Of a stretch of 64,000 nucleotides of DNA, positions 8,015-61,022 are shown one piece after another. Source of the DNA: Protonemura montana (lineage: Eukaryota; Arthropoda; Insecta; Plecoptera; Nemouridae); assembly GCA_947568835.1 (NCBI GenBank), contig OX387606.1, forward strand, positions 23,429,225 to 23,493,224, in the 5' to 3' direction. The notes under the pieces were generated by a model. That model saw only the letters and a list, made by a program, of their open reading frames with translations, was not told where the DNA came from and searched no databases. Position 1 is the stretch's first letter. Each line of letters starts with the position of its first letter. Both the position numbers and the translations under genes were made by a program.

Positions 8015-8545
8015 AAGATATTTATAATTATTTGTTTGTGGTGTTTAACGACGCACTGTTTTGACATCTGGCCATGCTGCACTGGTCTAATGGCGTCGGT
8101 GAATGAGTGGATGATGATGAAGATGATGATGAACCTAACCTAGCCTAGAAGGGAAGAGAAGAAACCCGGTGTCGGCACGTAGCTTACTCCTGTTGAAGAG
8201 CACCAAGGGGACCACCGGCTAAACGTCCCTTCCAAAGGACGGTACAACTCAAACAGCAGGATTCCTCCACAAATCCATGCTGTCGAGAGGTTGATAAGCA
8301 AGGCGAGTGAATTTGCTGTACTAACTTTCATCCCTCCAACCTCTCTCCCGAACAGAACTGGTCATGTGTATGACGGTCACCCATCCAATACCTGACCTAG
8401 CGCAGTGTTGCTTAACTTTCATCCCTCCAACCTCTCACCCGAACAAAACTGGTCATGTGTATGACGGTCTCCCATCCAAAACCTGACTCAGCGCAGTGTT
8501 GCTTAACTTCGGTGATCTAACGAAAACCGGTATTTCAAACACGCA
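8015..8545 (-). mobile_element. 5S-rRNA-derived SINE, copy 1 (two 5S units)
   Basis: Read on the minus strand, the element starts with a 5S-rRNA-like head containing AAGTTAAGCAACACTGCGCT (box A region) and GGATGGGAGACC-type box C. A body follows (CGACAGCATGGATTTGTGGA, CCTTCGGAAGGGACG-like) and then a tail ending AAACACCACAAA with a GAT/CAT triplet run. Two head units are present. Other copies lie at about 16.0, 19.3, 27.6, 44.9, 47.7, 51.6 and 60.7 kb. Confidence 0.85.
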
Positions 8546-11500
8546 AACCTTTTGGTATATGATCCAAAGAAGCGTTGAAATTCTAAAGTGTTAATTAGTA
8601 TGACAAGTTGAGCATGACATTCTGGGATCTAATTCCATTTGGTTCGGGACTGGAATGCAATAGTGCACTCTGCACTGTGCATTCATTGTCACTATATTTG
8701 AATATTATTTCCTCTACTGGTTTGGTATTTAAAGAAGCAACGGTGGTAATGTTCACGAAGTTGGCGCTGCGGTGTTGGTGTTTCGGTTTAGTGCTTCTCC
8801 ACAAACGAATTAATTACGTCGCGATGACGTCGACTCGGCCGCTGCAAGTTGCAGCTAATGCACTTTAAATTGTGGCAAAGCATGCTCCGTTTAGCCCGCA
8901 GTTTGTCGAGGAGCGAGAGTCGAACACACGCCCCCGTCACATTGTTGCAGCCGTCGCCATTTCAGATTTTAATAACTACACGGAGGCAACTTTGCGCCCT
9001 TTCGAACGCTTGGCAGCAAGATTATGGAAATGTCGCGGAAGGAAAACTAAGTTGTGTATCTGAATGGGTAATTTCTTATTGCAAAAAAAGGTTGATAAAA
9101 GAAACTATGGTCTTGCCTTAAACAGAAAGGAGTCTTGCTAGGTCGGTCGGTCCTGCAGTCAAAGAGAATACATACACATAAAGAATAATATTGCATGCAT
9201 AAGAGAAAAGAAGTATAACCTCAAAGTTTTCATGGAGACAGACAACAAAAGTAAGATAACTCGGAATTGAAGAAAAATTTTCGGTTTTTTTTTGTTTCCC
9301 TCTAAGAAAATTCGATTTTCCAAAAGAGCGAATCTGCACCTAGGTATCCATGCGAGCGCCTGGGACTTTGCTTGGCAGAATACATTTTCACACGTCGTCC
9401 TGCCGTGTTTTCTTTCCGGCACTGGATGGCAGTGCTGCCAATTGTTTTGCAAGGACGCCGACGTGAAAAAGGTCGCCAAAGTTGAGACTTTATGGAAACC
9501 AAAATATTTGTCCTAGCACGAATGATTGTCACTGCCCGATGGCGCATTTCGAGCGGCAAAAAGAGCGGGAAATTATTGCAAATTGCAATGAACTTGAATT
9601 TGAACAGGTAATGCCGAGCCGCACGTGTTTTTTTTTTAGAAACCTGCACGTGCGATGCAAGTTCGGTGCAAAACCAATTAAAATATTCGTTTTAAAAAAA
9701 AATTTCAAATTAATTTCCCCACGAACCTGTAATGCGCTCGCTACTAACACAGATGGCCATGTCAAAAAACAACCGGCTGAAAATGTCCCGGACCCAGATC
9801 ACCGTGGTCGCCTCACCCAAAACAAGAGCCACTCGTTTTTTTTTTCAGGACAAATCTGTCGGGCCGTGTCCAGGACGATGCAAATCCTTGTCGCCGACGC
9901 GCTGACGAAAAGTGGAGCGACGTTTTATTCGCGTCTCCGGCCGTCACCACGACGGCGTCGGCCCAAGTGAAGGGTATTCCGACAATTAGGTCTGACAAGT
10001 TTTGTCACTGCTGTGCTGTGTTGTTTCCTTCCCGTCCCCGCCCCAACCGCCCAACGCCACTGCTCTTCGCTGGTGGTTAGCCTAATCCCTTGGTATGCCG
10101 TGGCGCGATAATCTAGAGCTGTATTCGTGCTCTCAACAGGGGTAATAAATATTCCACTTTGCACCGTGCATATAATGGTAGGCTCGAGCATGTCTCCGGC
10201 AAGTGTCAGCCGTCAGATGCGAAAACAAGGAATGTCGCTTGAAAATGCTAAAATATCGCGTCAGGCGCACGGCGATTTGTCAATAGCCGCCGCGTGGTAC
10301 TGTGTGTATTAAACATGGGGAGTGACAACAATGCCGCGAAAGCCTAATTGTGTTTGACGGCGAAACGGATGCAACGTCATCGCTGTCACATTATGAGAGT
10401 TTTCTGCGTAGCGAAGTTCCTGAACGGGGACGGGGTGTGGGGGCGTTTGTCTTGCTTGGCGTTGACCCATCACCGACAGACGCCGCCAGTAGATTGTCAA
10501 ACGAGTGACTGCAAGCACGCGAAACTTTCGCCCCGCTATCGAGTGTAATGCTACTTGTTTAAAGAGTAATTATTGGCACTTTATGGCAGACCGACAGCTA
10601 ATTAGCCTGCTCGTTAGGGCTCCTCGATCAGCGGCACAAAAAGAACATAGTGTTTCTACAGCCGAGCGTCTTCCTTTATAATCACAGCCCGTTGGTCGGA
10701 TCATCTCAACTTTGAAAGCTCTCGGTCGCTGTGTGTGTATAAAGCTAGAAAGTTTTCGGTAGCCAAACTATCGAGAAATGGGTGATGAAACAAAAACAAA
10801 CAAGCCTCGCGAGCGCGCGCGCACGGCTATACAAGAAGTTATCTGGTGTACATTAGCGCTGTATACGCTTTTCCTAGAACAAAAACATGCATTTGTTTTT
10901 TTGTTTCGTCCCCCGGCCCCTTTAGGCGCAAACTAGCTAGATTAAGGGGGGCTTTGAGTTTGCCAAGCGGGAGATGGACCAACTAAGTTCGGACAGCAGT
11001 TAGCGCTGTGCCGTCGGACGAAAGAATCGAGCCTCAGGGTCCAATTGTGGCCAACCCGGCGCCTCCACTGCAGCGCTTCGCCGGGCACCGCGATGTAATT
11101 CGCTTTGGTGCACGGCGTGATTAAAGTCTGAATCATTCTGCTAGCGTCGACTCGGGAGAAATCAAACGGGAGGCGGTGAAATATCTTTGATTATCATTTC
11201 CTTCGTGCGCTGAGCATCTGCGTTAACGTAATTAACTTTGATTCGCTGGAAATTGAGAGCGGTGAAACAGACTTTTGTGCGTGCTGCGCTGTCAGAGCGT
11301 GCTTCAGTATATATATTCGTGGTCGCTGCGATGACAGACGAGCTCCGCGTGCAGATATGTTTTCATTTATTTTAATAACAGCTACAATTGCTGTCTTCTC
11401 ATGGCTGCTATGAAAATAAACAAAATAATAGAAAATTTTGTAATAATACCTACCGTTGCTTGCAATTTATACTTATTAGTTTTAACGTTTGTAGCTCGCC

Positions 11501-14500: not shown

Positions 14501-15995
14501 GGCAGCGGACTTGCGCACCAGCACAGAATTAACTATTCTTTCTTGAGACGTCCAAAACGAATTGGCCGTATTTCTTATACTTTGCCCGAGTTATGCTTCC
14601 CTTGTTCTAAAAGCAGGGGGAAGAGGGGAAGAGGCTAGACAGCGTTGGGTGCATATTCAGGAGGTAGCAGGACTCTGGTTTGTGCGGCAAACGCGTCGCA
14701 ACGTCGATTAGCACGGCAACTTGGCGGCGTCCCGACGCCCGAGCCAAGCGGACGGCGTTAAAGGATTAAAGCCCGGGCTTGTCGCGAGCATTCAAGTTGT
14801 GGGTCACAGTCACCCTTCCCGTTCCCGAGTCTCTTCCGCACCCTACAATACATGCACAGAGTCCCTAATCCTGAATAATGTTGAATGTTAATCTTGTTGC
14901 TAATCTTGACTACACTCTAGATTGAGATGACGACTGCTTCGAGCCGTCAAAGACAAGCTGGGTACTCGTTGCCGGCGGCGATGACTCGGTGAATTTGACA
15001 GTGCACAAACAGAGGATGCCGATCAAGATGAGAGTGCGGATCTAGTGCGAAGATCCGCACGTGAACCATGCGATATTTTCCGGTCAAAAGATGCGACGGA
15101 AATAAAGTTCTATTCCCAAGATCGGATTCGCGGCGTGGTCGCCTTTTTTAAGTTGGAAACTTTGTGTCCCACCCGCAGGTGAGAATCATAATAATATTTC
15201 AGGATAAATGGCTCGGTTATAAAAGTTGTCCCGGACTTATTCTATCGAATCAGCGGGCCATTTTCGGGAGCGCACACGACGTAGGAAATCTCGTTCCGCC
15301 GGAAGTGACGTATGTGACGTCCCACGAGGGCCCTAGAGGAAAATCTGTCAGCTACTAACAACGGGGCAAAACGCCTCGCCTCGTGTCGGCCGGCAAACTT
15401 CGGGTCTGTCGGATTGGCAAAAAGTTGTGCTCGACGCAGTGCTAAGGAGAGGTGCAAAAGATTTTTGTGCAAGTCTGGAGGGCCCTACTTTAACTTTCGG
15501 GTGATTAAGGCGCGGGCGGGGGGGGGGAGAGATGGTGGAGGGTGAGAGAGTTAGTGCCCACATATAAAACTAGAGGCGTACGTTTCATCGTGCCCTTAAG
15601 ATAAACTCAAACTTTGTCTTTCGAAGGGAAGCGGGCGCCTGACAAAAGGCAATAGTCATTTACATTTTCATCTGTGGAAATTAAGTCGCGTTTGGTAACA
15701 TCGTGATGGCGTGGGAGGCCATCATACCTAGATTATTTTCAAGGCAAATTAAACAAAAGAATCACTCTTGTTCGTGTGCACGACTCCTGTTTTCAAACTC
15801 CTCCTTCAATTTGTAACCGACATTGCTAATTTAGTCTGCGCGTTCTTCGGAGAGCAAAGATATTGTTATACCCGAGATATTGCTGTCACTAATTTGCCAA
15901 GAATTGTATCTCATGTAAAATACACCCAATGTTATAATGGGTAGTTAGCACTTCACCGCTTGTTCGTCAGGAAGAAAGTTTACTAAATTTATATT
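8546..15995. other. long intergenic stretch, no gene recognised
   Basis: CpG-rich, mostly non-repetitive DNA, especially 10-15.5 kb. Isolated splice-like sites exist, for example a strong pyrimidine tract plus AG at about 13930. No chain of phase-compatible exons was found. A poly-G/A tract lies near 15516. Regulatory DNA or untranslated transcripts cannot be excluded. Confidence 0.5.
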
Positions 15996-16420
15996 TAATT
16001 GTGGTTTTTAGCGACGCACTGTTTTGACATCTAGCCATGCGGCACTGGTCTAATGGCGTCGGTGAATGAGTGGATGATGATGAGGATGATGATGAACCCA
16101 ACTTAGCTCAGAATGGAGGAGCGGAAACCCGGTGCCGGCACGTAGCCTATTCCTGTCGAAGACCAAGGGGACCACTGGCTTAACGTCCCTTCCGAAGGAC
16201 GGTGCAACTCAAACAGCAGGATTCCTCCACAAATCCATGCTGTCGAGAGGTTGATAAGCAAGGCGAATGAAGTTGCTGTACTAACTTTCATCCCTCTAGC
16301 CTCTCTCCCGAACAGAACTGGTCATGTGTATGATGGCCACCCATCCAATACCTGACTCAGCGCAGTGTTGCTTAACTTCGGTGATCTCATGAGAACCGGT
16401 GTTTCCGACACGGCAAACCG
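15996..16420 (-). mobile_element. 5S-rRNA-derived SINE, copy 2 (one 5S unit)
   Basis: Full-length member in the same orientation as copy 1. It has the tail motif GTGGTTTTTAGCGACGCACTG, a GATGATGAGGAT triplet tract, the body, and a single 5S head ending in ACCGGTGTTTCCGACACG. With one head unit it is the basic form of the family. Confidence 0.85.
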
Positions 16421-19314
16421 TTCGGTGGTTTCCTCAAAAACTCTCTTCTATCAATGATACTGTCACTTTGCTAGCAGAAACCCTGACCCTAAGGTCAAGT
16501 AGGCAGGGCAGAGAAGTGGATAGCTACGTAACTGCAACACTTAGTATTTCGGGTCTGCCTTTGTGCTTATAGGTTAAGTCAGAGTCACAGTGCTAATGTT
16601 AAACGTTCTGCTGAGCAAACGAGCCGGCAACACGTGGTAATATGGCGCTTTCTGCCGTTTGTTTTACGCAAAATTTGACAGTTAAATTACGACTCAAAAT
16701 ATCGATACATTTCTATCAGTCGTTGAAATTAGGATCATTGTAGATTATTTTTGAGCTTCTAATCCAGTTTCAATGCGAGAAATAACAAAATAAAATGTCT
16801 TAAATGTCAAAAAGGCTATGAAATAATATTCCCGTTGTTGGTATGTTAGCCAATCGTTCGGCTGGGACTCCGACTCAACCTACAAACCCAATAAATCCAT
16901 TGCTTCGATATAGAATATTGGTACTTATATGGCTTTCCGAATGAAAGTAATTGCCAATTAAGTACTTACCCTGTGTGGGAGACAAACATTTGAGAGGGAG
17001 TTTGCTCCGCTGCGTCCACGTGCACTTATTGGTGGGGTGCGCGATTCTTCACCCAGTTCACTTGAACGTCGATAGCGAAGGGTTTCAGACAGACGACAGT
17101 CAGTCTCGAGCTAGTCCCGGCCCTTGAATGCAATCAATTCTGTTCGCAAGGGAACGGAATGCAGAGGTCGAACTGTTGCGACAAGAATGCAATGGTTTCG
17201 TTTCCTTCCTTGGCCTAAAAAAGGTCTAACAAAGCATATTCATTTACCTGTAGCGACCATGGACACGTCGACCGTTCGATCGGTAATGTTGATAGATGCA
17301 CTGCGAGCTAGGTACAATACTAAAAACTAGTTTTTATATGCGAGGGGGAATGTCCTCGTATCCTCAGGTGACTTTGACATTCAAAGATACTTTTAAAACA
17401 GTCTAAAACGTAGACTTCATTGGGATCAAAGAGGCTTGAATCGCGTTCTTTTTTAGCAAAAATAGTATTGGCTCTGAAAATTGAACATGCTTTTTTTTGT
17501 GAACTTTCGGGCGATATTAAAAATTAATGTAGGTACTCAGTAGGTAAAGGTCAGGTGGCAAACCATTATTATCAAACAATTGTGTACAGGGTCTATGTTT
17601 TTTCAGTCAATTAGAAGTTGTTAAACATTTATTACGTCCATATCTCGTCTTATCACATTCAGACTTTACACAACCAACGCCCATTTCTTGTGTAGGTATC
17701 AAAAGTCTAAAATATCAAAAGTCTTTGAGGTTAAAGTAGTTCCATAGCAGGAAGTAGGTGCAACAAATACCCACTGAGTACAGGAAAACACGACCACGAA
17801 ACAAGTTCTCGTCACTGCGCTCACGTCTAAGATGTTATCAAATTAACACCCATTCATTTCCCGACACACTAAATATCATTTGCAAGCAACGCTGCATGCT
17901 ATCTAGCGAACTTTTTTACTTTGCGGCGATGACTAATGGGTCACTTTACTTCAAGAAGAGATAGGAGCTCGGTACTTGCAATGTACAGCACAGCGACCGA
18001 GGGAAAAGTTTCATAATCATAAATCTATTGCAGTCGTGCATTACTTTCTCCTGTGGTCATTCCCTAGTACCCGTGCAGCCAGTAAGTACACAGCATTATG
18101 CTAAACACAATACTTTGAAAAAGTCGCCAGGAATTCCATCCCCTACAGCACGCGGTAGTCGGATTATTAAAGTCGAACTACTAGAACGAAACGTACGCAG
18201 CGAAATGTTGCAGCGAGTTCACCAGCGAGTTACGCATTAAAGCGTGAACAATTATTACAAAAGAAGTGGGACCTAGAGGAGCAATTTTGGGCCTGGCAGA
18301 GTGTAATTAAAATTGTAATAATTGTACATTGTACGCGAGAGAGTGCGAAAGTCAAGAGAGAGAGAGAAACATCCCACACATAGTTCGCAGCTCTCGGCTC
18401 AGCAGCAAAAGGGATGAAGCGGAAAATATACCCTCGCGAGCTCTGAAACTCTGCAAGTATTTATATACTTTGATGCATTTCGTATTAAATTATAATAAAC
18501 CATGCGGCGGTGGTGGCAGTGGTGATGCGGTGCCGGGGTATTAGACCTCCTGTTCGCGACTGCTAGCTGTTTTATGGCACGACTAGAACACGTTTTGTCG
18601 GAGACAGTTCTGCAACAGATGTCTTCATTAGATTACACTACGACGTCGACGACATTGTGGATAAAAACACTTGCTATAAACGCGCCGAGAGTTCCGCAAC
18701 GGGTGCGCGTCTCCCCGTCCCGTCCCGTCCCGGCCCGGCCCGACCCGGCCAGAGATCCAGCTAAGAGTTATTACCGGGTGACATATAATGATCATAGCGC
18801 CAAGACAAGGCTTGACTGTTGCGATTTACGACCGTCGTCGGTGTCGTGTTCCCCTTTTCTTGCACGCACATGATGGTAAAATATTAATTCGATTGCAACG
18901 AAGGTAGGTCATATAGCTGCGAATGCTAGTGACGCTGACGATGCCGTTAGTATGGTGATGTGCCACGGGTAATGCGGGCTGGAAACAGGGATGTTGCCGC
19001 TCTGTTTCATAATCGGTCTGTTTCGATAATGAAGAGAATACATTACGGTGGCTGTAATGAGCGTTTCCTATCGACACAAAAAGCACTTGTTGGATGTATG
19101 TGCGGTGTAATTACGTACCGTACCTATACAGATAACGACGGCGAGGGTGAGCAATACGGGTGGTGCTCTACTTTCCAGTCTAGCTACTGGTTTAGAGGGT
19201 GGCAGTGGTGTGAATTGGGAGGATAGGACCTGGTGCAGATATTTTTCTAAGGGGACCAATGACATATTAAATCCGTAGGCACATGCCTGTATTGATTTTG
19301 TGTATTGAATTGAT
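16421..19314. other. intergenic, no gene recognised
   Basis: No conserved coding signal. A C/G-rich run of CCCGTCCCGTCCCGGCC type lies near 18715-18750, and a GA-rich tract near 18350. Confidence 0.5.
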
Positions 19315-19835
19315 TGATTTGTGGTGTTTAACGACGCACTGTTTTGACATCTGGCCATGCGGCACTGGTCTAATGGCGTCGGTGAATGAGTGGATGATGA
19401 TGATGATGATGAACCTAATCTAGCCTAGAAGGGAGGAGGGGAAACCCGATACCGGCACGTAGCCTACTCCTGTCGAACAGCACCAAGGGGACCACCGGCT
19501 TAACGTCCCTTCCGAAGGACGGTACAATACGAACAACAGGATTCCTCCACAAATCCATGCTGTTGAGAGGTTGATAAGCAAGGCGAATGAAGTTGCTGTA
19601 CTAACTTTCATCCCTCCAACCTCTCTCCCGAACAGAACTGGTCATGTGTATAATGGTTACCCATCCAATACCTGACCCAGCGCATTGTTGCTTAACTTTT
19701 ATCCCTCAACCTCTCTCCCGAACAGAACTAGTCATGTGTATGATGGTCAACCAACACCTGACCCAGCGCAGTGTTGCTTAACTTCGGTGATCTCACGAGA
19801 ACCGGTATTTCCAGCACGCCAAACCGTTCTGTATC
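19315..19835 (-). mobile_element. 5S-rRNA-derived SINE, copy 3 (two 5S units)
   Basis: Same structure as copies 1 and 2, with two head units joined about 90 bp apart. The element ends in CCGGTATTTCCAGCACGCC, the start of the 5S-like head on the minus strand. Confidence 0.85.
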
Positions 19836-26500: not shown

Positions 26501-29500
26501 AGTGACATGGGCCATCAAGCCTTCTTGTACCTCCCTGGGTACAATAGTGACATGGGCCATCAAGCCTTCTTGTACCTCCCTAGGTACAATAGCAACATGG
26601 GCCATCAAGCCTTCTTGTACCTCCCTGGGTACAATAGCAACATGGGCCATCAAGCCTTCTTGTACCTCCCTGGGTACAATAGCAACATGGGCCATCAAGC
26701 CTTCTTGTACCTCCCTGGGTACAATAGCAACATTGGCCATCAAGCCTTCTTGGCCCGATCAATTAAGACTGTGCAATGCACTGCCCCACGATATAATGAC
26801 TACATTTCCAAAAAATGTGAAATACCACTGTAAATTTATAAACTAACCACAAAATTCTATGTAATTATATTGTAAATTCTATAAACACTAAATGTAATTC
26901 TATTAGCCTCGGGTAATTATTGTAATACCAAAGCTATTAATAAACAAATACATAAATAAATAAAGCAAGACCTAAATAGCATCGATGAAATTGGCCCTTA
27001 GACCAAGGAAAAAAGGACCGGGACAATGATAGTTTCGACAATGTACTGATTCTCTTTGTTCCGCCAGCGCAATTCTGAGATTTTGCTCCATAGTTGTCTG
27101 TCGATAAGCATCCATTTGTTCCAACACAAACCAACTGGGTTTTGAATGCTAAGTAAAGAACAAATAAATTTCCCAATTTATCACAAATCAATTTTGTTGT
27201 TCTTCACTTAGCATTCAAAACCCAGTTGAAATAGTTTTTGTTAAAACTAGTGCTCAGTTTACATCAAGTAGATATGAGTCTAAAAACAATCGTGCATTTG
27301 TTCCGTTGCAATCGTCAGCAACACTAGCAGATATCGATTGAGAAATCGTTGTCCACATCAATAAACAATCGAGGGATTGCAGTGCTGTCCTACCAGTTCC
27401 CCTAGCGAGCACTGCCTTGTAGAACGTGTCAGACTTCTGAGACACGTTGTCGGCGATGAGCTGGCTCGTGTGCGGCTGCCGTACGTAGTCCTCCCAGACG
27501 AGCGGAGCGAACTCGCGGAGCGTGGAGCCGAGCTTGGCAGGGAACAGCGTGCGCATCGGCTGACCGACCAGCACTTGCCCCGACTCTGTAGCCCGAAACA
27601 AAGGAGTTGCAGGTAATGTGCATAGAATCTACTCCTGTCGAAGAGCACTAAGGGGACCACCGGCTTAACGTCCCTTCCGAAGGACAGTACAAGGTGAACA
27701 ACAGAATTCCTCCGCATATTCATGCTGTCGAGAGGTTGATAAGCAAGGCGAGTGAAGTTGTTGTACCTACTAACTTTCATCCCGCCAACCTCTCTTTCGA
27801 ACAGAACTGGTCATGTGTATGATGGTCGGCCATCCAATACCTGTCCCAGCGCACTGTTGCTCAACTTTGGTGATCTCACGAGGACCAGTATTTCATACAA
27901 GCCAAATCATGTCAATGGTTAGGATACCTCAAAGTACCATCTTGGTAGCCAGAAGCAGCCGGGATACGAAGAAGTAAGCTCACCCAGCTGCTGGATCTGC
28001 TGACACAACGACAGCCTCGACTCCAGCCGCCGCTTGATTCGACGAAACAACGTCTCGCTGCCGATGGCTGCGTGTCCGTCGTTAACCGACTCCTTGCCGG
28101 CCAATCGCTGGGCCCAGACATACGGCAGACCAAGGTCGGCGGGAATATCGTCCAATCCAGCTCGGCGGAGGCACGAGGAGGCGGCGGCATCACAAGCCGC
28201 CTCCCCCTGCGTGCCCGGCAGCAGCACTGACAGGATGCGGTGGGGGGAGATCAGTTCGCTGATAACAAGACGTGACAGTTCAAGGTTAGTGCGCACCCTT
28301 CTGGGATAAACCTGTCGAGAGGCTACCAGGAGGGTCTTTGTTAGGACCATGCTCTTATTGATGGAGCAACTCTCATGCAAATATCATACTCAAGTGGAAA
28401 AGGATTGCTACAACTTTGATTGGACTGTGGACTTACGCTAGATTCACTGATCTCAAATAACCTAGATCGCCAGAGAGAGACTTTGAAGCCAAGGATGCCA
28501 GTTTGATAGTCCCTGATTTTAAGATTTTTCCAAAAGCCTGTGCTATTTTTAGGGTTTTCATCGGTAGTTTTCGTGGTGGATTTGGTCTCCACCATTTTAA
28601 TAGTCAGATCAGTGGATGGCAATTCAGTCACAATGGCAGTTTTTGTCACCCCCGCAGTAACTAGGAGTAGCAAAAATGGTGGCCTAGAGGTTTACCCACA
28701 ATTGACATACTAATAAACAAAAGCACTAGCATTGGCACAGTGACAAAGAAAATGTAAGCAAATTTAACTCAACTGGATTTTGAATCTGACTGTATACAAA
28801 GTAGACTTTGCCTCAGCTGCCACTTGTGTTTTCAGAAGATTTAATTTAAGATTATATTATAGTTAGTGACATGTTTACATAAACATTTCCACAGAATTCT
28901 ATGTTTAATTTTACTCTTGCTAATTCCATAAACTATAAGTGAGGTAGCAGTGCTTTATAACCGCCTGAACGGGCACTTAATCTACAAACAGAGCACTCAA
29001 AAACGTCCCACCTCGTCAATCAGAAAAGATTGTCCGTCATGTTTGTTATAATAACGCTCTGTGATTGGTTTGACATAAGCACATAAGGGTTAAGATTCTT
29101 TGAACATAGTTATATGTTGCGCATAAGTGCTATGCTCGTTGTGTTGATTGTGTGCAGTCCCATATGATAACCAAGTTTTAAGATCCTTGTGTGCTATGCT
29201 TGTGTTCGTGCTTATTGGTATGTCAATTGCGAGTAGACCTTAAAAACACAGTTAAATCAACAAGAAATCAACTCACGTTGCAGCCACCCCATGAACTGCA
29301 TGAGTGGACTCCACTTTCGCCGCCACAGTGACGACCGAGAGGTTGGTAAGGTGCGAGAACGAGAGTCTTATGGAGCTGCCCTCGGGGAGGCGGAGCGTCA
29401 CTTCCACGACGAATGGGTGAGCCAGGAGCAATAAGGCCCGCCTCTCAGCCAGACGGTCTCTGGCCGACGCCTTTCTACGACGCCCACTTTCCTCTTCCTG

Positions 29501-38816: not shown

Positions 38817-39430
38817 CGGGGGCTGGTAGCACCCGATGTCATATTACGCGCTGCTCAATTAGTGTTGTAGGAAAAAGTGGCAAAAGATTTTAACATAAAT
38901 AATCGAACATTGACTCGGTATTGTCATAAAGTAACTGATGCAGATTTTAATTAAATTAATTATATGATCACATGACGGAATTTCTCACTGAGACAACTAG
39001 CCTCAGTGTGTGAGACAACTAGCATCAGTGTCTGAGACAACTAGCCTCAGTGTGTGAGACAACTAGCCTCGGTGTGTGAGACAACTAGCATCAGTGTGTG
39101 AGACAACTAGCCTCAGTGTGTGAGACAACTAGCATCAGTGTCTGAGACAACTAGCCTCAGTGTGTGAGACAACTAGCATCAGTGTGTGAGACAACTAGCC
39201 TCAGTGTCTGAGACAACTTGACCCACACGTGGGGTTAAAAGTCTCAAACATTTTTAGGTCAACTAAGAGACATAGCAATTCAACTGACAGTCTAATAAAT
39301 CGCAAAAAAAATCACATTATAACCAAATGTATATTTATCAATCAAAAAATATAACGTAAGAATAACTTCATTTTTCTAGAAGATATGCACACATAGGTAG
39401 ATTTTGAGACAACTAGACCCCTCCTCCCCT
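38817..39430 (+). mobile_element. pogo-like transposase scrap plus 22-bp satellite
   Basis: The coding trace reads LVAPDVILRAA.., then VAKDFNINNRTLTRYCHKVTDADFN. This resembles the N-terminal helix-turn-helix of pogo/psq-type DDE transposases, but it is broken by a stop. It is followed by the 22-bp array and a shared non-coding block (TTATAACCAAATGTATATTT) ending GAGACAACTAGACCCCTCCT. A sister copy lies at 62.2-62.69 kb. Confidence 0.65.
38990..39209. repeat. 22-bp tandem repeat, 10 copies
   Basis: Units of GAGACAACTAGCCTCAGTGT plus two bases, 22 bp each, with two main variants (GCCTCAGTGTGT and GCATCAGTGTCT). Ten units are followed by a terminal GAGACAACTTGACCC. The sister element at 62.44 kb has a single unit plus the same terminal sequence. 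Confidence 0.95.
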
Positions 39431-43842: not shown

Positions 43843-44755
43843 GGGGAAGTGAGGTTATGTAGTTTGTGTTGCAGACGTGTCGTGATGCGATGCTGGTCTT
43901 CAGCTATGAGTTGTGTATGCAGAATGTAGCTCGACAAAGTGGACTGCGTTTTGACCGATCGCTTTAAAGGCTCCAACTGTCACAACAAACAAACGAATGA
44001 ATGGTGGGGTGTAAAGATGCTTCAATCTTAAGATTATATATCACGTGATAAAATTTCTGAGAATATAGCACCTAAGTGAACTTGCGGCAGGTACAATGTC
44101 ACAGCCCAGAAAAACAGAGAGCGGAAACGGGAAGTGGCAAAGAATGAAACAAGAAATGAGGAGGTGAACTTAAAGATGTTGAAAGATATACATCGCACAG
44201 ATTATTTCCATCCTAAGACAGTGTCCCGTGACAACGACGGTGTAGGCTAGTCCTGGTCTGGGTCCTCGCTAGGAGCCTGTCAGGTATAGCAGACCTTGAC
44301 AGGGATTGAAACCTTCCCAACCAGCATGGCCTCCTGAATCATTGGATTATGCAAACCCTTTCACCACGGTAAGGGCCTTGAAGAAATTTTTCTCATTGTG
44401 GTAATCTTCATTTAAAAATTGAACAGAGTCCTATTGTGATTTTAATCTTAAGACTCTCTTTGAGTTGAAAGACAATAGTGTCAGACAAAACTGTAGATTA
44501 TTTTTATTTATACAATTTTTTTTTTTAACAATTTTCTATGCTAAAACTCTGTTCTCCTTGTTTTCCGTGATGTCTAAATTTAATTGCTTGACATTTGTAA
44601 AGTGTCATTGATTTAGAGAATAATAAATCCCGAGACTGAACCGAGTTTATGCCAAATTAAGCCTGATGTTGGTGAAATCAAGACCTGAAAATTTAGGAAG
44701 AAATTGCAATTAGAAATTTCTGCAAACCGATTTGAATGTCGTTTTTTCCATTCAC
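43843..44755. other. intergenic, no gene recognised
   Basis: Mixed single-copy DNA. The UBA3 exon expected next after 44756 is not found here. Confidence 0.5.
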
Positions 44756-46291
44756 CAGTATGTGACGCCGGGGAAGCTGAATTGCGCCGCGCGTTCTACT
44801 GCCTTCTCGTGGACCCAGTTGATGTGTGCAGGATCGTCCTCATCAAGGGGGCCCTGGAAACACAGATAGATGTCAAAACTTGCATTTCCAAACACAGATC
44901 ATCCTTGATTGATTTGTGAGTTTGAACGACGCACTGTTTTGACATCTGGCCATGCGGCACTGATATCATGGAGTTGATGAATAACAAGATGATTATGAAC
45001 CTAACCTAGCCTAGAAGGGAGGAGGGGAAACCCGGTGCCGGCACATAGCCCACTCCTGTCGAAGACGAAGGGGACCACCGGCTTAACGTCCCTTCCGAAG
45101 GACGGTACAACGCAAACAACAGGATTCCTCCACAAATCCATGCTGTCGAGAGGTTGATAAGCAAGGTGAGTGAAGTTTCTGTACTAACTTTCATCCCTTC
45201 AACCTCTCTCCCAAACAGAACTGGTCATGTGTATGATGGCCACCCAAAAATACCTAGCCCAGCGCAGTGTTGCTTAACTTTCATCCCTCCAACCTCTCTC
45301 CCAATCAGAACTGGTCATGTGTATGATGGTCACCCATCCAATACCTAACCCAGCGCAGTGTTGCTTAACTTTCATACCTCCAACCTCTCTCCCGAACAGA
45401 ACTGGTCATGTGATGGTCACCCATCCAACACTTGACTCAGCGCAGTGTTGCTTAACTTTCATCCCTCCAACCTCTCTCCTGAACAGAACTGGTCATGTGT
45501 ATGATGGTCACCCATCCAATACCTGACCCAGCGCAGTGTTGCGTAACTTTCATCCCTCCAACCTCTCTCCCGAACAGAACTGGTAATGTGTATGATGGTC
45601 ACCCATCCAATACCTGACCCAGCGCATTGTTGCTTAACTTCGGTGAACTCATGAGGACTGGTGTTTCCAACACGAGAGAGGAAAAAGAAGATGGCAGAGA
45701 AAACTGTGTTGATTATCAGCAGGGCGAGCGAGATGAGAATAAATTCCAAACGACGACATCCAGTGGAGAAGGTGAATTATCTCTTGGAACATTGAAACCA
45801 CAAGGCTGTGAATACTCACAGTCACTCTGATTCCAGTGACGCTGTACTTTCTGTCTTGTTCACCAAATACTCTGCAATCGCTCAAAACGGTCGACCCAAT
45901 TAGCACGGATGGTTGGGGCAACACCTGCAACAGGTGGCAAACAAGCTTTGATTCAGTAAAATCTGATATAAATTGCAAATGCTTTATTATTTAAATGCTT
46001 CAAATGCTTTAGTTTTGATATCCAAATTGGAAACACACTAATCTTCTCATCGCAAGCATATGCAATTTAAATACAAGAATCAACATACAAAGTTTCAAGT
46101 CAGCCTCGTGGCTTTTTACCTGGTACGACTTGTCTCGCGGCCACTTCAACAGCTTGACGTACTCGACGCAATGCTCAGGAAGCCGCAGCGTTGATGCAAG
46201 CGTGCAGAGCGGGTACGTGACTTGTGGCGGGAACAGAGCAAGCGTAGACTAGACACAAGCGTTGCAGCCTGCAGGCGGGGAGCAATGACAT
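44756..46291 (-). pseudogene. UBA3: NEDD8-activating enzyme E1 catalytic subunit (UBA3), two orphan exons
   Basis: UBA3 with NAE1 activates NEDD8. Exon A (about 46120-46248) reads STLALFPPQVTYPLCTLAS, then LRLPEHCVEYVKLLKW. Exon B (44756-44853) reads GPLDEDDPAHINW, then EKAVERAAQFSFPGVTY. They are consecutive in the family, and the splice sites between them are intact and phase 0. Just upstream of exon A, the family's PGMTACIEC-like region can be traced but carries a TAG in frame and a frame change. An AG at 46249 could alternatively be the real acceptor. Neither the upstream adenylation-domain exons nor the downstream exons were found. The intron holds SINE copy 5. Best explained as a partial duplicate. 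Confidence 0.75.
44915..45676 (-). mobile_element. 5S-rRNA-derived SINE, copy 5 (five 5S units)
   Basis: Complete tail and body (44915-45190), then five head units at roughly 91-bp spacing, one of them 4 bp short. The element ends GGTGTTTCCAACACG. It sits in the intron between the two UBA3 exons. Confidence 0.9.
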
Positions 46292-47184
46292 CTGAAACAG
46301 GGATCCACAATCCTCTAAGATATATATGGAGAACCTAAAGTTGAACTACGTGTTATTTATAGAGATACGTGTTTTTAGCATTAATTTTATCGAAATTTTA
46401 GTGCTAATTATTTGAATTTTAGCGTTTATAACTAAATAGAAAAAAGGGCTTTTGCGATCTAGATTCGAAAGGAATGCGGATTTTGGGCAAGCACTGCGAT
46501 CTCTAATAAAGAAGTTATCAAAAAAAATAACAATAAAGCAAATATTAAGTTTAGGTCCTCAACATCGGTATTTGTAAGGGACTTGGAACAAAACTAATAG
46601 CACAAATCAATATTTTACATAAATGCCACCATGAAATACATTGTATGGCAGTATGAGCGACACCTACTACTTGATAAAACTGAACATTGAACAAATTTCA
46701 ATGATAGCTTCCTTCATTCTTGTTCCTTTGTCAGTCAGCACCAGGTTTTATTGACTAAAAAACCTTTCTGCATCAACACTGTTCACTGGGGCTCAAATAG
46801 TTTGTAAAGTCAGAACTGCAAATGAGGGGTTTGAGATTTTTATATCCATTATAATTTGAATTAGACCCACTGCCTGGTACTAACAACATACTTTGCATGA
46901 TTGTCTTTTTTCTCCCAGACAAGTCTGTGTTCCAGATTCCACACATCAAGATAGATCCAATAGTCACAAAGAGTTGCTTTGCTTGATCCTCAAAAGTCGA
47001 AAATTTATTACACCCCATTGAAATTTGAAATCCCAGCTAATTTCTACACCACATTACTGATTGAACTCAACAGGCAGCCTGAATACATGTGGTGTCAGCG
47101 CTCACATGACTAGTGGATACTTAGCTCGCAAAATCTAAAACGCCATCTAAAGGCACCAACTCAACATAGCGCAACGAGAAAACA
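46292..47184. other. no gene recognised
   Basis: AT-rich single-copy DNA. The missing upstream UBA3 exon was looked for here and not found. Confidence 0.5.
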
Positions 47185-47662
47185 GCCTACAAAACTCATA
47201 AGCGCTAGCCTTCAAAAATACGTGATGTACTGAACGAGACAGGCTAACAGTAAAAAAATTTGTGTTATCATTTATTTGCGAGAAAATGAAGGGGGGCTAC
47301 TCCCTTGAAACTTCACAGATGATAGAGTACGTGATGGGCTTCGATCTGTGATGGTCTAAATTTTTGGCCCAGCCCTGGACAAAAATGAGAAAAAGCCTAC
47401 AAAACTCATAAGCTCTAGCCTTCAAAAATACGTGATGTACTGAACGAAACAGACATAACAATAAAAAAATTTGGTTTCCATTTATTTGCGAGAAAATGAA
47501 GGGGGGGTACTCCATTGAAAGTTTCACAGATGATAGAGTACGTGATAAGCTTTCGATCCGTGATAGTCTAAATTTTTGGCCCAGCCTTGGACAAAAAAAG
47601 GCTAACTTTAACAACATTTTTGTTATCATTTATTAGCGAGAAAATGAAGGGGGGGTACTCCC
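47185..47662. repeat. 210-bp tandem repeat, about 2.3 copies
   Basis: AAAACTCATAAGC recurs at 47191 and 47401. Each unit contains GCGAGAAAATGAAGGGGGG and TAAATTTTTGGCCCAGCC. An inverted relative lies at about 59990-60225. The last unit runs directly into SINE copy 6. Confidence 0.85.
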
Positions 47663-47663
47663 T

Positions 47664-48900
47664 GTTTGGCGTGTTGGAAACACCGGTTCTCGTTAAATCA
47701 CCGAAGTTAAGCAACACTGCGCTGGGTCAGGTATTGTATGGGTGACCATCACACACATGACCAGTTCTGTTCGGGAGAGAGGTTGGAGGGATGAAAGTTA
47801 AGCAACACTACGCTGGGTCAGGTATTGGATGGGTGACCATCATACACATGACCAGTTCTGTTCGGGAGAGAGGTTGGAGGGATGGAAGTTAAGCAACACT
47901 ACGCTGGGTCAGGTATTGGATGGGTGACCATCATACACATGACCAGTTCTGTTCGGGAGAGAGGTTGGAGGGATGGAAGTTAAGCAACACTGCGCTGGGT
48001 CAGGTATTGGATGGGTGACCATCATACACATGACCAGTTCTGTTCGGGAGAGAGGTTAGAGGGATGGAAGTTAAGCAACACTGCGCTGGGTTAGGTATTG
48101 GATGGGTGACCATCATACACATGACCAGTTATGTTCGGGAGAGAGGTTGGAGGGATGAAAGTTAAGCAACACTGCGCTGAGTTAGGTATTGGATGGGTGA
48201 CCATCATACACATGACCTGTTCTGTTCGGGAGAGAGGTTGGAGGGATCAAAGTTAAGCAACACTGCGCTGGGTCAGGTTTTGGATGGGTGACAATCATAC
48301 ACATGACCAGTTCTGTTCGGGAGAGAGGTTGGAGGGATCAAAGTTAGGCAACACTGCGCTGGGTCAGGTATTGGATGGGTGACCATCATACACATGACCA
48401 GTTCTGTTCGGGAGAGAGGTTGGAGGGATGAAAGTTAAGCAACACTGCGCTGGGTCATGTATTGGATGGGTGACCATCATACACATGACCAGTTCTGTTC
48501 GGGAGAGAGGTTGGAGGGATGAAAGTTAAGCAACACTGCGCTGAGTCAGGTATTGGATGGGTGACCATCATACACATGACCAGTTCTGTTCGGGAGAGAG
48601 GTTGGAGGGATGAAAGTTAGTACAGCAACTTCACTCGCCTTGCTTATTAACCTCTCGACAGCATGGATTTGTGGAGGAATCCTGTTGTTCGCGTTGTACC
48701 GTCCTTCGGAAGGGACGTTAAGCCAGTGGTCCAAGCTTTTCAACAGAAGTAGGGTACGTGTAGTCACCTGGTTTCCCCGTCTCCCTTCTAGGCTAGGTTA
48801 GATTAATCATCATCCTCATAATCATCCGCTCATTCACCGTCGCCATTAGACCAGTGCCGCATGCAGTTGTATAACAGTGCGTCGCTAAACCCCAATAATT
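47664..48900 (+). mobile_element. 5S-rRNA-derived SINE, copy 6 (ten 91-bp 5S units)
   Basis: The head begins TTTGGCGTGTTGGAAACACC. AAGTTAAGCAACAC then starts at 47704, 47795, 47886, 47977, 48068, 48159, 48250, 48341, 48432 and 48523, exactly 91 bp apart. The eleventh position (48614) reads AAGTTAGTACAGC and passes into the body and tail. Each unit spans the 5S box A, intermediate element and box C (GGATGGGTGACC). It is the only copy on the plus strand. Confidence 0.95.
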
Positions 48901-50685
48901 AATCATTCAATCAATAGGTTTTCGTTTGGAAGTTGAAGCCGGGTTTAGTTACTCAAGATAGCAAGAAATCGTGTCGTGGATAATTTTAAACCCATTTAGA
49001 ACATTCGGGCACAAAATTTCCTTCTACCTCGAGAAACCTCGTTATGCTGTCACCATTTTACAAGATGTTTCAATTCGACTATCTGAATGGGCTGCTTGTT
49101 GGGGTCCGGCCCAACCAGCGGCACATTCTGATTAAACATGGCCGACATTTAAACACCCCTTAGGAGGCTACTATCATGCCCGCTAAGCCAATCAAGAACC
49201 CAGCAATGGACCATGTAATTTAAGGCCATTCGCGCAAATTCGAACATAAAGAAATGAAAAATATTGCGAGTAATTAAAAGAAATACAAGAACAATTTAAA
49301 TCTAGGCTCAAAATAAAATAAATCACATCAAAACACACAAAAATTACTTATAAACTGAGAATGCATTAAAAGGACACAATTACGACTAAAATAATAAACA
49401 TACCAGAGAAGCGTGAATGTCTAAACCAGCTGTAACTACCAGACGAAAACCCGGTCCAACTAAAAAATATTGTACAATTAAAAGAACATACAGAGGTACC
49501 TTTAGGTGGAAGGAAAATTTGGGCAGGATTTTCTGAAGGGGTTAAACGGCGTCTAATTTCCAACACACATACGACTTCTTGCTACCTTGAGTAACTTAAT
49601 GTGTACAATAATAAGAATATACTGACGTACCTTTAGGCGGAAGGAAAATTTGGAAGTGGAAGTTACAGGAATTCCAGATTTACAAGCACCGCAAACTCGT
49701 GAAATTTCTTTTCATCCAGGGATCCCAATTAAAAGGCTATAGGGTTGTAAATTTTTATATCACAACACAACATATATAATGACAATAATATCGCCATCAA
49801 ATACAATTCAAATGCTTTAACAATATCTGAATTACTATTTACGTGTTTGTGTTTACGTAAATCTTGCTAACTATGAGAGTGATTCATTTGATATTTAGAA
49901 GCGTTTGTTCCGTGAGGTCAGTGGTCATGGCCGATCATAATCTGTATTTTGTGGAGATTATAATCAATCGCCCAGCATTAGCTTGACTTAAGACGCGCGA
50001 AAACCATGAAAAACGAACGTCCGAGGCGGGCCTCACGGGTGCAAACAGGAACATTATGCAGGCGAGCGATAAAGTCCTATGGCTTGTAAATTTGGTCACA
50101 TGAATCTCAAAGCAACTGAGGAAACCCTACTCTCCCTTATGACTCTATCTGCTATGATTTTATGTTGGCTCTATTTACCACAATATTACAAAATGTTCTA
50201 GGCGTAAGGCGAGCTAAGAGAAAAACGCAACATGAGAGAAGACAAAAAAAATGGACATGAAAACTAGAAGATCAAATTAACCTAATTCCAGCAACCCTCA
50301 ACGATGGACAAAGCGACAAAGAAACAACCATTCGACACCAAAACCTAACAAACCTAACAAACCTAACAAACCTAACAAACCTAACAAACCTACTACGGTT
50401 CGGTACCGAACCAATCTAACTGTGAAGAACGAAACAGCCTCTAGCAAGAACCTACAACAATCCAAAACTTGGACAGGAAGTCTAACAACAATGGCCTTGT
50501 CCCCAAATTTTTCTCAACTTCTCTCATGTCACACAAATTAATCAATAATTATGAATATTTCCCGAACTCGAGACTTGAACAGCCTCTGAACTGACGTGAC
50601 GTTAAGCCCCGCAAAGCAAGCAATGAAAGATATTAACTAACAAACAAAAGTTGCCCCATGTTTCCTCAGAGCCCCGATAAAACTC
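48901..50685. other. dispersed repeat units, no gene recognised
   Basis: Copies of a family marked by TTACTCAAGRTAGCAAGAAAT lie at about 48930-49080 (plus) and 49380-49690 (minus), with relatives at 59580-59890. Six tandem copies of a 9-bp AACCTAACA unit lie at 50340-50393. Confidence 0.65.
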
Positions 50686-53600
50686 TCACAGCGCGTCCTC
50701 GCTACAATTTCCAGGGCTTGAAGCAAGGTCTCGTCGGAGGAAGCCAAGATGCATCGGCTTCAAGCAGCGGCTCGTGGAGTTCACCTGAAGACAACAGAAT
50801 AAAGTCATATTAGACTCGTTGCCAGGTACATGACGACTCTTGCACTCAGTAAAACATGCTCCGGACAGCGACGTTTACTCGGGAAAAATTGCGCAAAACC
50901 AGTTTTCAAACTTGGGAAAACATTAGCTATGTAGAAAAACTATTTTAAATGGGTTTTGAAAGCTTAGTAAAGTATAAAACGTTTCGTAACTTGTACCTGT
51001 TACTTTATCAAGGGTTAGAGCAGTCCTGACAATTTTCCAATAACAAAAGAACCACACAAAATTATAACAATTTCCTAGTTCAAGCTTCCTAAATGCATTC
51101 AAAGAAAATAATCAGGGTCAATAACTCAAAAACTAATGTATTTTGTATTGTCAGGACTGCTTTAACCCTTGATAAAGTAACAGGTACAAGTTACGAAACG
51201 TCGGGAAATTCAGTTGTTCTTCACTTAGCATTCAAAACCCAGTTGAAATAGTTTTTGATATAACTATTGCTAAGTTTACATCAAGTAGACATGAGTCTAA
51301 AAACTATCATTAGCTTTGTTCGTTGGTCATGAACCTGTGGATTATATCTCTTAGACGGAGACAAAATGTATCCAGTTTTTGACGCGATACGTCTTTGAAA
51401 AGCCAATTCTAGGGCGAGAGATTACGGACTTGTATTGGAAGGCTCGCATGCCGACTTACATCTATCGACGCTGCTGTAGAGACGTCTTGATGTCGCTTGT
51501 AGGAGATCGGATTACGTCCCACCGCGGACAGCTTTCCATGCAAACCAAGGCAGAGTGGAAACCTGCGTGAAAAGAAAGGCCGCAGATTAGGCAACACATC
51601 TATGTTATTATTATTATTTGCGGTGTTTAACGACACACTGTTTTGACAACGTGCCATGCAGCACTGGTCTGATGGCGTCGGTGAATGAGTGGATGATGAT
51701 GATGAACCTAACCTAGCCTAGAAGGGAGGAGGGGAAACTCGGTGCCGGCACGTAGCCTACTCCTGTCGAAGACCAAGGGGACCACCGGCTTACGTCCCTT
51801 CCGAAGGACAGTACAACGCGAACAACAGGATTCCTCCACAAATCCATGCTGTCGAGAGGTTGATAAGCAAGGCGAGTGAAGTTGCTGTATCAACTTTCAT
51901 CCCTCCAACCTCTCTCCCGAACAGAACTGGTCATGTGTATGATGGTCACCCATCCAATACCTGACTCAGCACAGTGTTGCTTAACTTTGGTGATCTAACG
52001 AGAACCGGTGTTTCTAACACGACAAACCGTTGATCAATTATGTTCCCGCTAGACGGTTGCTAGCAACAACTTTTTGTGGCTAAGTCCAAGTATGTGCCTC
52101 GTAAGCTAACAACTGGGGGTCGATTCCACGAATGGGAACAAAGTTTCTAGAGGGTAGTTGTGTACGCTCTCAGTCGATTGAATTCTCACTGATGTACATG
52201 TCGAATTAAAATGTCGGCTTACAATCAAAGTTACGGTTTGGAGCAGTGAGCTTTACGTCCATGCAGTTGCGTACCTGTAGTTTTGTTGTCGAATATATTC
52301 CATCGTACGACACTTGTCGCGGGGGAAGCCTGGGGGCTCAGGTTCCTCGAGGTCTTCACCGTCACTTTCTTCAATCGTGAATGACAACCGCCGACTGCAG
52401 ACAAAACCAGAAACACGTTAGTCACGATCGACAGTGGCTTGCAACGCCACTGGGACGGGTAGACGCGAAATTTAAACGAGCAAAGCACAACGGACGGACT
52501 CGTTTAGTGCAAGGTAAGTTGCAGTGGTGTAGACGAGGGTGTACGCGGGTATTAGCCGTATACCCAAAAAACTTTTAGACACCGAGCGTATACCCAAAAA
52601 AATTACAGGGTATACGCCCAGTAAATACACTTTGCAAAACTTTAAAATGCGTTATGCAACGACAATTCTTAATCTCCCTACAACATGCACTATAAAAACT
52701 CGAAAAGCAAAGTTTATTCCGAAAAGTGGGTAGTCCGTGTATGGTAGCGGTTCGTATGATCTGGATGGGTATGCAATGGTTTTTCCAAGCAGTCAACATA
52801 CTCATTCAACCCACCCGAGGAAAGCGCGATTGCAGCGACCCCAACACCAAGTAGTAGTTTTAGTGTTGATAGGAATGAACTATCTATGAATTATAACTAG
52901 TGAATAGACTAGAAGTACCTAGCTAGTACCTAACCTAGTGATGACCACGGCATTTGGAACTCATAGCCTGATAACCCAGCGTATACCCAAAAAAAAATGT
53001 AGGACTACACCACTGGTAAGTTGGAAGAATCGATTCCTGCAGCAGATTTATTGTGGAAAATGCCGATCAAATCTTGGCTTACCATCGGTCAGTCGAGCAG
53101 CATGTCGATCTTCATTCTTCGTTTTGGTCTCGAGCGACAAGTGTTACGGGCGCAGATTCTGTAGCCTCGGGCGGTCAGCTGGAAATCAAAGGACAAAAAT
53201 AAAACAAACGTTGGGCTGACAAATTTCACCGGGAAGAGATGCACAGAGTTTCAAAATATTCCCGAAGCAAACAACGGTTATTATGTAAATCTAGTCAAGA
53301 GTGCTTCATCGGTCTCGACTCAACTTGTTTAATAATTTGTAATGTTTATTTGTTGGCTCACCTTTGTTGCCGTGGCGACTGGCTAGGTACTGGGAGTCGA
53401 ACCAGAACCCTCTTCTAAACTCCGTTCCATCTTTGTTGCCGAGATGATGATCCAGTTGGTAGCCATGGGGTTGATGCAACAATCGGCCAGTCGTGTTGGT
53501 AGCCATGGGGTTGATGCAACAATCGGCCAGTCGTGTTGGTAGCAGTGTTCACGGAGACACTTGACGTTCGCAACAATGAAATCAAAAAAGTTTTTGTTAT

Positions 53601-60689: not shown

Positions 60690-61022
60690 CCGTCCAACGA
60701 ACGACGCATTGATTTGATAACGGACCCTGTCTATGGATCTGGAATCTGACAGCACTGGTCTAACGACGATGGTGAAGAGAGGTGATGGTGGGAGAGAGAT
60801 GGTGAAGAGATGGTAAGCCAAACATAGCCTGGAAGTTGGAGAAACAAGAGGAATTTCGGAGCTGAAATTTAGCCAACTCCTGTCGGAAGGTACCTTCCAT
60901 TGGCGTAGCGTCCCCTACAAAGGATGGTATAACTCGAACAACACCATTTCTGACGACCTGATCCAGCGCAGTGCTGATGAACTTCTGTATGAACTGGTGA
61001 TTCCAACACGTCAAACCGTTAG
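60690..61022 (-). mobile_element. Diverged 5S-rRNA-derived SINE, copy 8
   Basis: The same order of landmarks as the other copies is visible: an ACGACGCATTG tail, CAGCACTGGTCTAACG, a GGTGA/GATGG tract, CCAACTCCTGTCGG, AAGGATGGTATAACTCGAAC, and a GGTGATTCCAACACG end. There are many substitutions and the 5S head is shortened. It probably represents an older subfamily. Confidence 0.7.

Follow-up and report, generated by a model that had tools for sequence, protein, structure and literature searches.

SINEs derived from 5S rRNA (SINE3), among them HaSE3, PxSE4 and PxSE5 of Lepidoptera, are built from a 5S head, which contains boxes A, IE and C, and a non-coding body, and are flanked by target-site duplications (TSDs). 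In the main text of two papers on such elements in insects (PMC3272025, PMC8010984), the word 'tandem' occurs 0 times, and no mention of a repeated promoter region was seen. Type 1 promoters need upstream signals, and presumably little or no activity is left to a copy after retroposition, as stated in the text of PMC3272025. Tandem arrays made from a portion of a SINE have been described in squamates, where these satellites (sSats) derive from tRNA SINEs. According to the text of PMC10702118, they carry extended SINE sequence at the array end (at both ends in minor variants), show a subtelomeric bias and alternating unit subvariants, and vary in unit number by locus; the main snake unit (67 nt) contains box B only, and some gecko units include the greater part of the head. 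The main text of that paper uses the word 'retrotransposition' 0 times, and no statement of retroposed arrays was seen there.

The second close precedent is found in the L1Md elements of the mouse, whose 5' tandem promoter units (monomers) vary in number and in which 5' ends fall inside units. The text of PMC6454616 sets out two proposed modes of growth and a proposed buffering against 5' truncation, in that monomer duplication is said to preserve promoters through truncation-prone retroposition; additive activity of the monomers is attributed there to earlier work.

We analysed a stretch of 64,000 nucleotides of Protonemura montana (the window; C4:23429225-23493224), which stops ∼2.4 Mb short of the end of the 25,858,110-base contig C4 in a genome of 258,480,905 bases and 34 contigs. 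At 47660-48908 on the + strand, the window contains a SINE copy in which a 5S rRNA-like head is followed by ten 91-bp units and then by a body with an AT-rich tail. This copy probably belongs to a 5S-derived SINE whose internal-promoter segment turned into a tandem array; such arrays can be retroposed as a whole, are altered in place and are found mostly near chromosome ends. Copies of the element in the window are as follows.

8035..8557, - strand: two-unit copy (TRF, RF00001, head, unit and body matches)
15993..16425, - strand: one-unit copy (RF00001, head, unit and body matches)
19309..19832, - strand: two-unit copy (TRF, RF00001, head, unit and body matches)
27629..27906, - strand: decayed one-unit copy (sequence matches)
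44905..45674, - strand: five-unit copy (TRF, unit matches, array reading)
47660..47703, + strand: 5S rRNA-like head of the ten-unit copy, to the AAGTTA opening unit 1 (Rfam RF00001 47660-47776; head match 47664-47703, 92%)
47704..48613, + strand: ten tandem 91-bp units (TRF; motif every 91 bp; unit matches)
48614..48908, + strand: SINE body and AT-rich (AATC-like) 3' tail (body match 48614-48908, 89%)
51616..52031, - strand: one-unit copy at 51.6 kb (RF00001, head, unit and body matches, flank alignments)
60798..61020, - strand: copy fragment with pieces of head, unit and body (sequence matches)

TRF reports the array at 47704-48619 with a period of 91, 10.1 copies, 96% matches and 0% indels. 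The motif AAGTTAAGCAACAC opens 10/10 units at exact 91-bp steps, nine times exactly and once (48341) with one mismatch; at ≤2 mismatches it is matched 23 times across the window, compared to a mean of 0.78 in shuffled sequence. The head of the ten-unit copy (47660-47776) matches RF00001 with 46.9 bits (gathering score 38), and all six RF00001 matches in the window exceed the gathering score. The head thus contains box A, IE and box C in 5S spacing, as in SINE3 elements: the stretch from box A to box C is ungapped in 4/5 of the RF00001 alignments shown, the 19-kb copy being 4 bases short there. These features support a 5S-derived, SINE-like family. Each unit begins at the 5S sequence AAGTTAAGC (box A), spans the IE and box C region and includes ∼43 bp after it. 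Box A, IE and box C bear their usual 5S names and coordinates, and their placing on the 91-bp unit follows the RF00001 5S alignments. The unit-unit junction lies at AAGTTA, a hexamer that is present both at box A in the head and at the start of the body. The first 91-bp duplication would have arisen between these two hexamers, the junction itself being read directly in the sequence. An alignment of the first 45 bases of the unit with the body beyond AAGTTA was trivial under free end gaps, was equalled in 1000/1000 shuffles and carries no information on homology there.

The agreement of TRF, motif steps and RF00001 head confirms the ten-unit 5S-derived array of the preliminary description, including the AAGTTA-to-AAGTTA junction. 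Its 'ten exact 91-bp copies' are strictly spaced but not exact, as the units are 96% alike and 94–97% identical to unit 1. The other copies that it named were found as claimed (one-unit copies at 16.0 and 51.6 kb, two-unit copies at 8.0 and 19.3 kb and a five-unit copy at 44.9 kb); it overlooked the two worn ones at 27.63–27.91 and 60.80–61.02 kb, and also the larger dispersed repeat within which the ten-unit copy lies (see below).

Junctions were counted over the whole genome at ≤2 mismatches, with reversed-pattern controls of 0. This yielded 26,614 unit-unit, 9,449 unit-body and 10,702 head-unit junctions, part of the last belonging to a second array type. That second form, seen in L060 (C1:923300-924600) and L061 (C1:1224900-1226200), has 92-bp units that extend from the 5S start as far as box C, with ACC joining one unit to the next; the genome contains 2,502 junctions of this type at ≤2 mismatches. 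Copy classes were counted with exact 14+14-letter ends and a 76–84-base gap, again over the whole genome. There were 941 one-unit copies with head and body, about as many head-linked copies with n≥2 (990), and 2,074 body-linked copies with n≥2, head present or not; ratios between these classes are approximate because the flanking words differ among patterns. Three consecutive consensus units (≤2 mismatches over 273 bases) were found at 652 places, overlaps counted apart (control 0).

Among the loci examined, n ranges from 1 to 22, the longest array having 22 unit matches (L059); L076 runs to the edge of its locus. For sSats, arrays of tens to hundreds of units are expected to be more homogeneous than short ones, whereas the short loci examined here gave 22 units at most. 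Tandem repeats of the SINE portion with extended SINE sequence at the array end are present, as in the sSats. Arrays without a body occur in L023, L059, L060, L069, L071, L072, L074, L075 (one of two) and L078; among these, L059, L071, L072 and L074 also have no head match, and the bases before the first unit of L059 resemble a broken head. A 5' end within a unit is seen in 14/22 listed headless copies or arrays. The preliminary description had named a satellite unlinked to SINE bodies as the finding that would speak against it; these four loci are of that kind, whereas the 2,074 body-linked copies with n≥2 are not. Its proposal that the element multiplies its own putative TFIIIA-binding module, by template switching or unequal exchange, is borne out in part: units are multiplied genome-wide and unit number changes in an exchange-like manner, while template switching would be one conceivable source of the first duplication. 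In L042 (C1:8952000-8960000), two inverted copies with 3 and 5 units have a common 5' flank and different 3' flanks. Unit position 22 is A in 21/32 one-unit copies and mostly G in array units; by this position, the array-bearing copies may form a separate, younger subfamily.

TSDs of at least 8 bp were sought in copies with a body reaching at least position 260 and with enough flank, 73 copies being kept. Such TSDs flank 11/35 dispersed one-unit copies, as in SINE3 elements, and 3/6 two-unit, 4/24 n≥3 and 0/8 no-unit copies, compared to 1.2% of mismatched flanks; 12 of the 24 n≥3 copies are copies of two nested insertions, with TSDs in 0/12. The most informative copy, L010 (C1, 490 kb), lies between 14-bp TSDs: unit bases 53-91 come first, then seven complete units and the body. 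A one-unit RNA cut at base 53 would be without bases 1-52, and the template of L010 therefore had at least two units. Judged from its ends, the multi-unit array of this one copy was itself retroposed, and L010 is the sole clean proof of a multi-unit template. The other n≥3 copies with TSDs, namely L077 (n=5, cut at base 6), L070 (n=7, full head) and one L042 copy (n=3), are not proof by themselves because later growth in place is possible. L013, which begins at base 62, comprises two complete units plus a body and has no TSD. Multi-unit elements would thus be transcribed and retroposed as arrays, the retroposition being demonstrated for one copy and the transcription presumed. Five of the 14 unit-internal 5' ends lie ≤5 bp from position 44, the expected start of RNA from the next unit (binomial p 0.02; the range was chosen post hoc and L030 is doubtful), which is a hint that RNAs may start from internal units.

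The surroundings of the ten-unit copy recur elsewhere in the genome and define the following feature.

47107..50302, no strand: part of a larger dispersed repeat carrying the ten-unit copy, outer ends not found (flank alignments to L001-L008, L063 and L067; junction pattern)

In the compared loci, the left flank of the ten-unit copy is present in 10/10 and the right flank in 9/10 cases (L067 ends short); the flank-head junction of the larger repeat occurs 45 times in the genome. The repeat spans 47107-52366, or perhaps as far as 57.2 kb, and carries two SINE insertions that face each other; no stop-free frame longer than 115 aa was found in 44000-57500. The second insertion is the 51.6-kb copy, which has the larger repeat as its neighbourhood like the ten-unit copy.

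The two nested insertions permit one and the same array to be compared across loci. The ten-unit insertion has n=10 in the window, compared to 8, 8, 3, 6 (broken), 13, 9, 3, 7 (broken), 13 and 10 in L001-L008, L063 and L067. The first unit carries one and the same pair of variants in 11/11 copies of this insertion, and the inner units vary in number and order. The 51.6-kb insertion has n=1 in the window compared to 10, 9 and 10 in L062, L064 and L065; a four-unit block is present twice in L062, and L064 has the same arrangement minus one unit. Unit variation was further analysed in the 42 arrays of three or more whole units (355 units in total), in which 3/151 multi-site unit haplotypes were common to independent insertions. 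In a subset of 13 arrays (88 units), located in the window or in loci L009-L058, the latter chosen by exact body junctions on C1, 74/191 rare-variant pairs fell within one array (mean 17, maximum 34 in 1000 shuffles). Mean unit divergence within these 13 arrays was 5.47%, compared to 5.50% after shuffling, with 917/2000 shuffles as low; most unit differences are therefore not explained by local growth. In the 42 arrays, divergence was 3.9% within and 4.3% between insertions and 9.8% among one-unit copies, the array values being lowered by the choice of many of these arrays for their likeness to the unit. Apparent half units (matches to 42-91 and 1-48 in the unit search) were read as edges of the scoring window.

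From these patterns, local duplication of units is real, yet leaves most unit differences unexplained. Once inserted, arrays would gain and lose units by unequal exchange or slippage at the DNA level, as suggested by the differing n of the same insertion, the block duplications and the private variants. Growth in place from one-unit inserts as the sole mode is ruled out by L010; retroposition of ready-made arrays as the sole mode is ruled out by the differences in n within the same insertion together with the private variants.

Other tandem repeats in the window were detected by TRF.

24068-24490: array of 60-bp units
24884-25516: 114-bp array, 5.6 copies
26166-26752: 45-bp array, 13 copies
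38989-39218: 22-bp array, 10.5 copies
53989-54387: 11-bp array, 36 copies

In addition, 52-bp tandem units with a tRNA-like box A are found at 31095-31356 (- strand) and 56993-57197 (+ strand). In the 31.1-kb array, the last 52-bp unit alone runs into a box-B-like stretch (Rfam tRNA match 31076-31148). Genome-wide, the unit-unit junction of this family occurs 14,103 times and its terminal module 2,244 times. At C1 20.98 and 22.42 Mb, a tRNA-like array lies ∼5 kb from the larger-repeat junction, as in the window; at C1 25.10, 26.09 and 28.87 Mb, the 52-bp arrays form inverted pairs ∼0.6–0.9 kb apart, as in a fold-back element. The 52-bp units thus make up a second family of Pol III type in which promoter pieces are tandemly repeated.

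The tandem form is more subtelomeric than the one-unit SINE, a comparison made on C1 alone. With C1 divided into the left 2.5 Mb, the interior and the region beyond 29.12 Mb (limits set after the lists had been seen), the whole lists for C1 place one-unit head-bearing copies at 2/44/19 (left/interior/right) and head-linked copies with n≥2 at 16/11/60, a contrast between two headed patterns with a Fisher odds ratio of 14.5 (p 1.8e-12). Body-linked copies with n≥2, with or without a head, are distributed 14/6/80 among the matches listed (to 31.95 Mb). Set against the headed one-unit copies, this body-linked set gives, among the matches listed, an odds ratio of 33 (p 1.2e-17), although unlike patterns are compared; both the one-/multi-unit ratio and the C1 contrast are weaker once a head is demanded in both patterns. 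Across the genome, 31/34 loci with three perfect units lie <4 Mb from a contig end, where 14.5 were expected (34 loci from 51 zero-mismatch places). Arrays thus lie mostly near chromosome ends, where some are without head or body and look satellite-like.

Variation in the ICR compared to the rest of the unit is 2.3% versus 2.0% in arrays and 6.6% versus 4.7% in one-unit copies. The ICR is no better conserved than the rest, and there is thus no sign of selection on the promoter boxes. The typed consensus of head, units and 5' body has no T run above 3; it therefore contains no TTTT Pol III stop, and Pol III could read through. In the window's own array, TTTT occurs in unit 7 (48278), and it is also found in the body (48737). 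Since retroposed type 1 promoters are presumably silent or weak, promoter redundancy is an attractive, if putative, reading of the arrays. The advantage would be that a reverse transcription stopping inside the array still leaves whole box A-IE-C units in the new copy, on the model put forward for mouse L1 monomers.

Several of these observations would also be expected of a passive SINE-derived satellite, in which one-unit SINEs insert, unequal exchange at chromosome ends expands the 91-bp unit, the promoter content is incidental and arrays are not retroposed. The strong chromosome-end bias, the array-private variants and block duplications, the arrays without head match or body, the promoter boxes without extra constraint and the squamate precedent as described in PMC10702118 are all in its favour. 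Such an account is at odds with L010, in which a 5' end inside a unit is followed by seven complete units and the body, with 14-bp TSDs on both sides. It also sits poorly with the head-linked copies with n≥2 being about half as numerous as the body-linked ones (990 and 2,074), as 5' truncation inside arrays predicts, although decay of the exact head word would likewise lower the first count. We therefore regard a purely passive satellite as unlikely.

A retroposing, array-bearing SINE also has to be weighed against the larger dispersed repeat as the vehicle that spreads multi-unit arrays. This repeat is present as 45 copies of the flank-head junction, and 16/16 places with a 100% match to the window's whole first unit adjoin that junction. 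However, 45 carriers are too few for ∼2,074 exact-ended body-linked multi-unit copies, independent insertions have their own flanks and private unit variants, and independent multi-unit insertions with TSDs exist, which makes spread by the larger repeat very improbable. Collapse or expansion of tandem repeats during assembly has still less to recommend it and can hardly be the explanation: tandem arrays are prone to misassembly in general and nothing specific was found, whereas units within arrays differ by array-private variants and the junctions occur tens of thousands of times on several contigs.

Beyond the array-bearing SINE itself, we advance a more tentative reading, which has less than an even chance of being right. 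A Pol III retroposon may here be evolving in the manner of mouse L1, with promoter units selected to keep 5'-truncated copies transcribable, internal units starting RNAs of their own, and arrays later released at chromosome ends as satellites that carry promoters; at least one further family of Pol III type, with the 52-bp tRNA-like units, may do likewise. If true, the promoter-monomer strategy of mouse L1 would extend to Pol III elements, and SINE retroposition and the birth of subtelomeric satellites would be tied together within one family. It raises the testable question of whether multiplying the internal promoter helps a retroposon to survive 5' truncation, for which this genome supplies copies in the thousands, n extending from 1 to above 20 and one insertion being represented at many n.

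Compared with the known systems, the family agrees with the lepidopteran SINE3 elements in its 5S head, non-coding body and TSDs and departs from them in its array. The traits given above for the squamate sSats recur here, from the tandem SINE portion with extended sequence at the array end to the subtelomeric bias, the alternating subvariants and the locus-dependent n; the differences are the 5S SINE origin, an A-IE-C region in every unit and the evidence of one retroposed array. With the L1Md monomers, the family has in common variable tandem promoter units with 5' ends inside units (L010; 14/22 headless copies), two modes of growth and the proposed buffering. L1Md is an autonomous Pol II LINE with units of ∼200 bp, whereas the present element is non-autonomous, with a 5S-type head and a putative Pol III type 1 promoter, and the longest stop-free frames in 44000-57500 do not exceed 115 aa. 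PcH-sat, as described in the text of PMC11121367, likewise is a satellite from part of a SINE, the limpet Nin-SINE, but is without boxes A and B and is pericentromeric. The plant Cassandra arrays (PMC7215508) resemble the present ones, in the account given there, by a retroelement-borne 5S promoter in tandem arrays with unequal exchange proposed; they differ in that Cassandra is an LTR retroelement and its unit consists of LTR and internal domain rather than a 91-bp promoter segment. Dimeric or twin SINEs, such as Alu (PMC10702118), Culex Twin (named in a title cited by PMC8010984) and cockroach Sbg9 (PMC9191728), also unite two or more SINE or Pol III promoter regions in one element, but in a fixed make-up rather than a variable array.

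The preliminary description was aware of no promoter-array forms, a statement that calls for qualification, as subtelomeric satellites derived from SINEs have been published for squamates, according to PMC10702118. No description of a 5S SINE with a promoter array was recognised in the literature searched by listings and abstract starts, subscription papers lying mostly outside it. SINE-derived satellites and L1 monomers are thus already known; what appears new here is that a SINE of 5S (type 1) descent has a box A-IE-C region, with presumed promoter function, in each unit, together with the evidence of a retroposed array.
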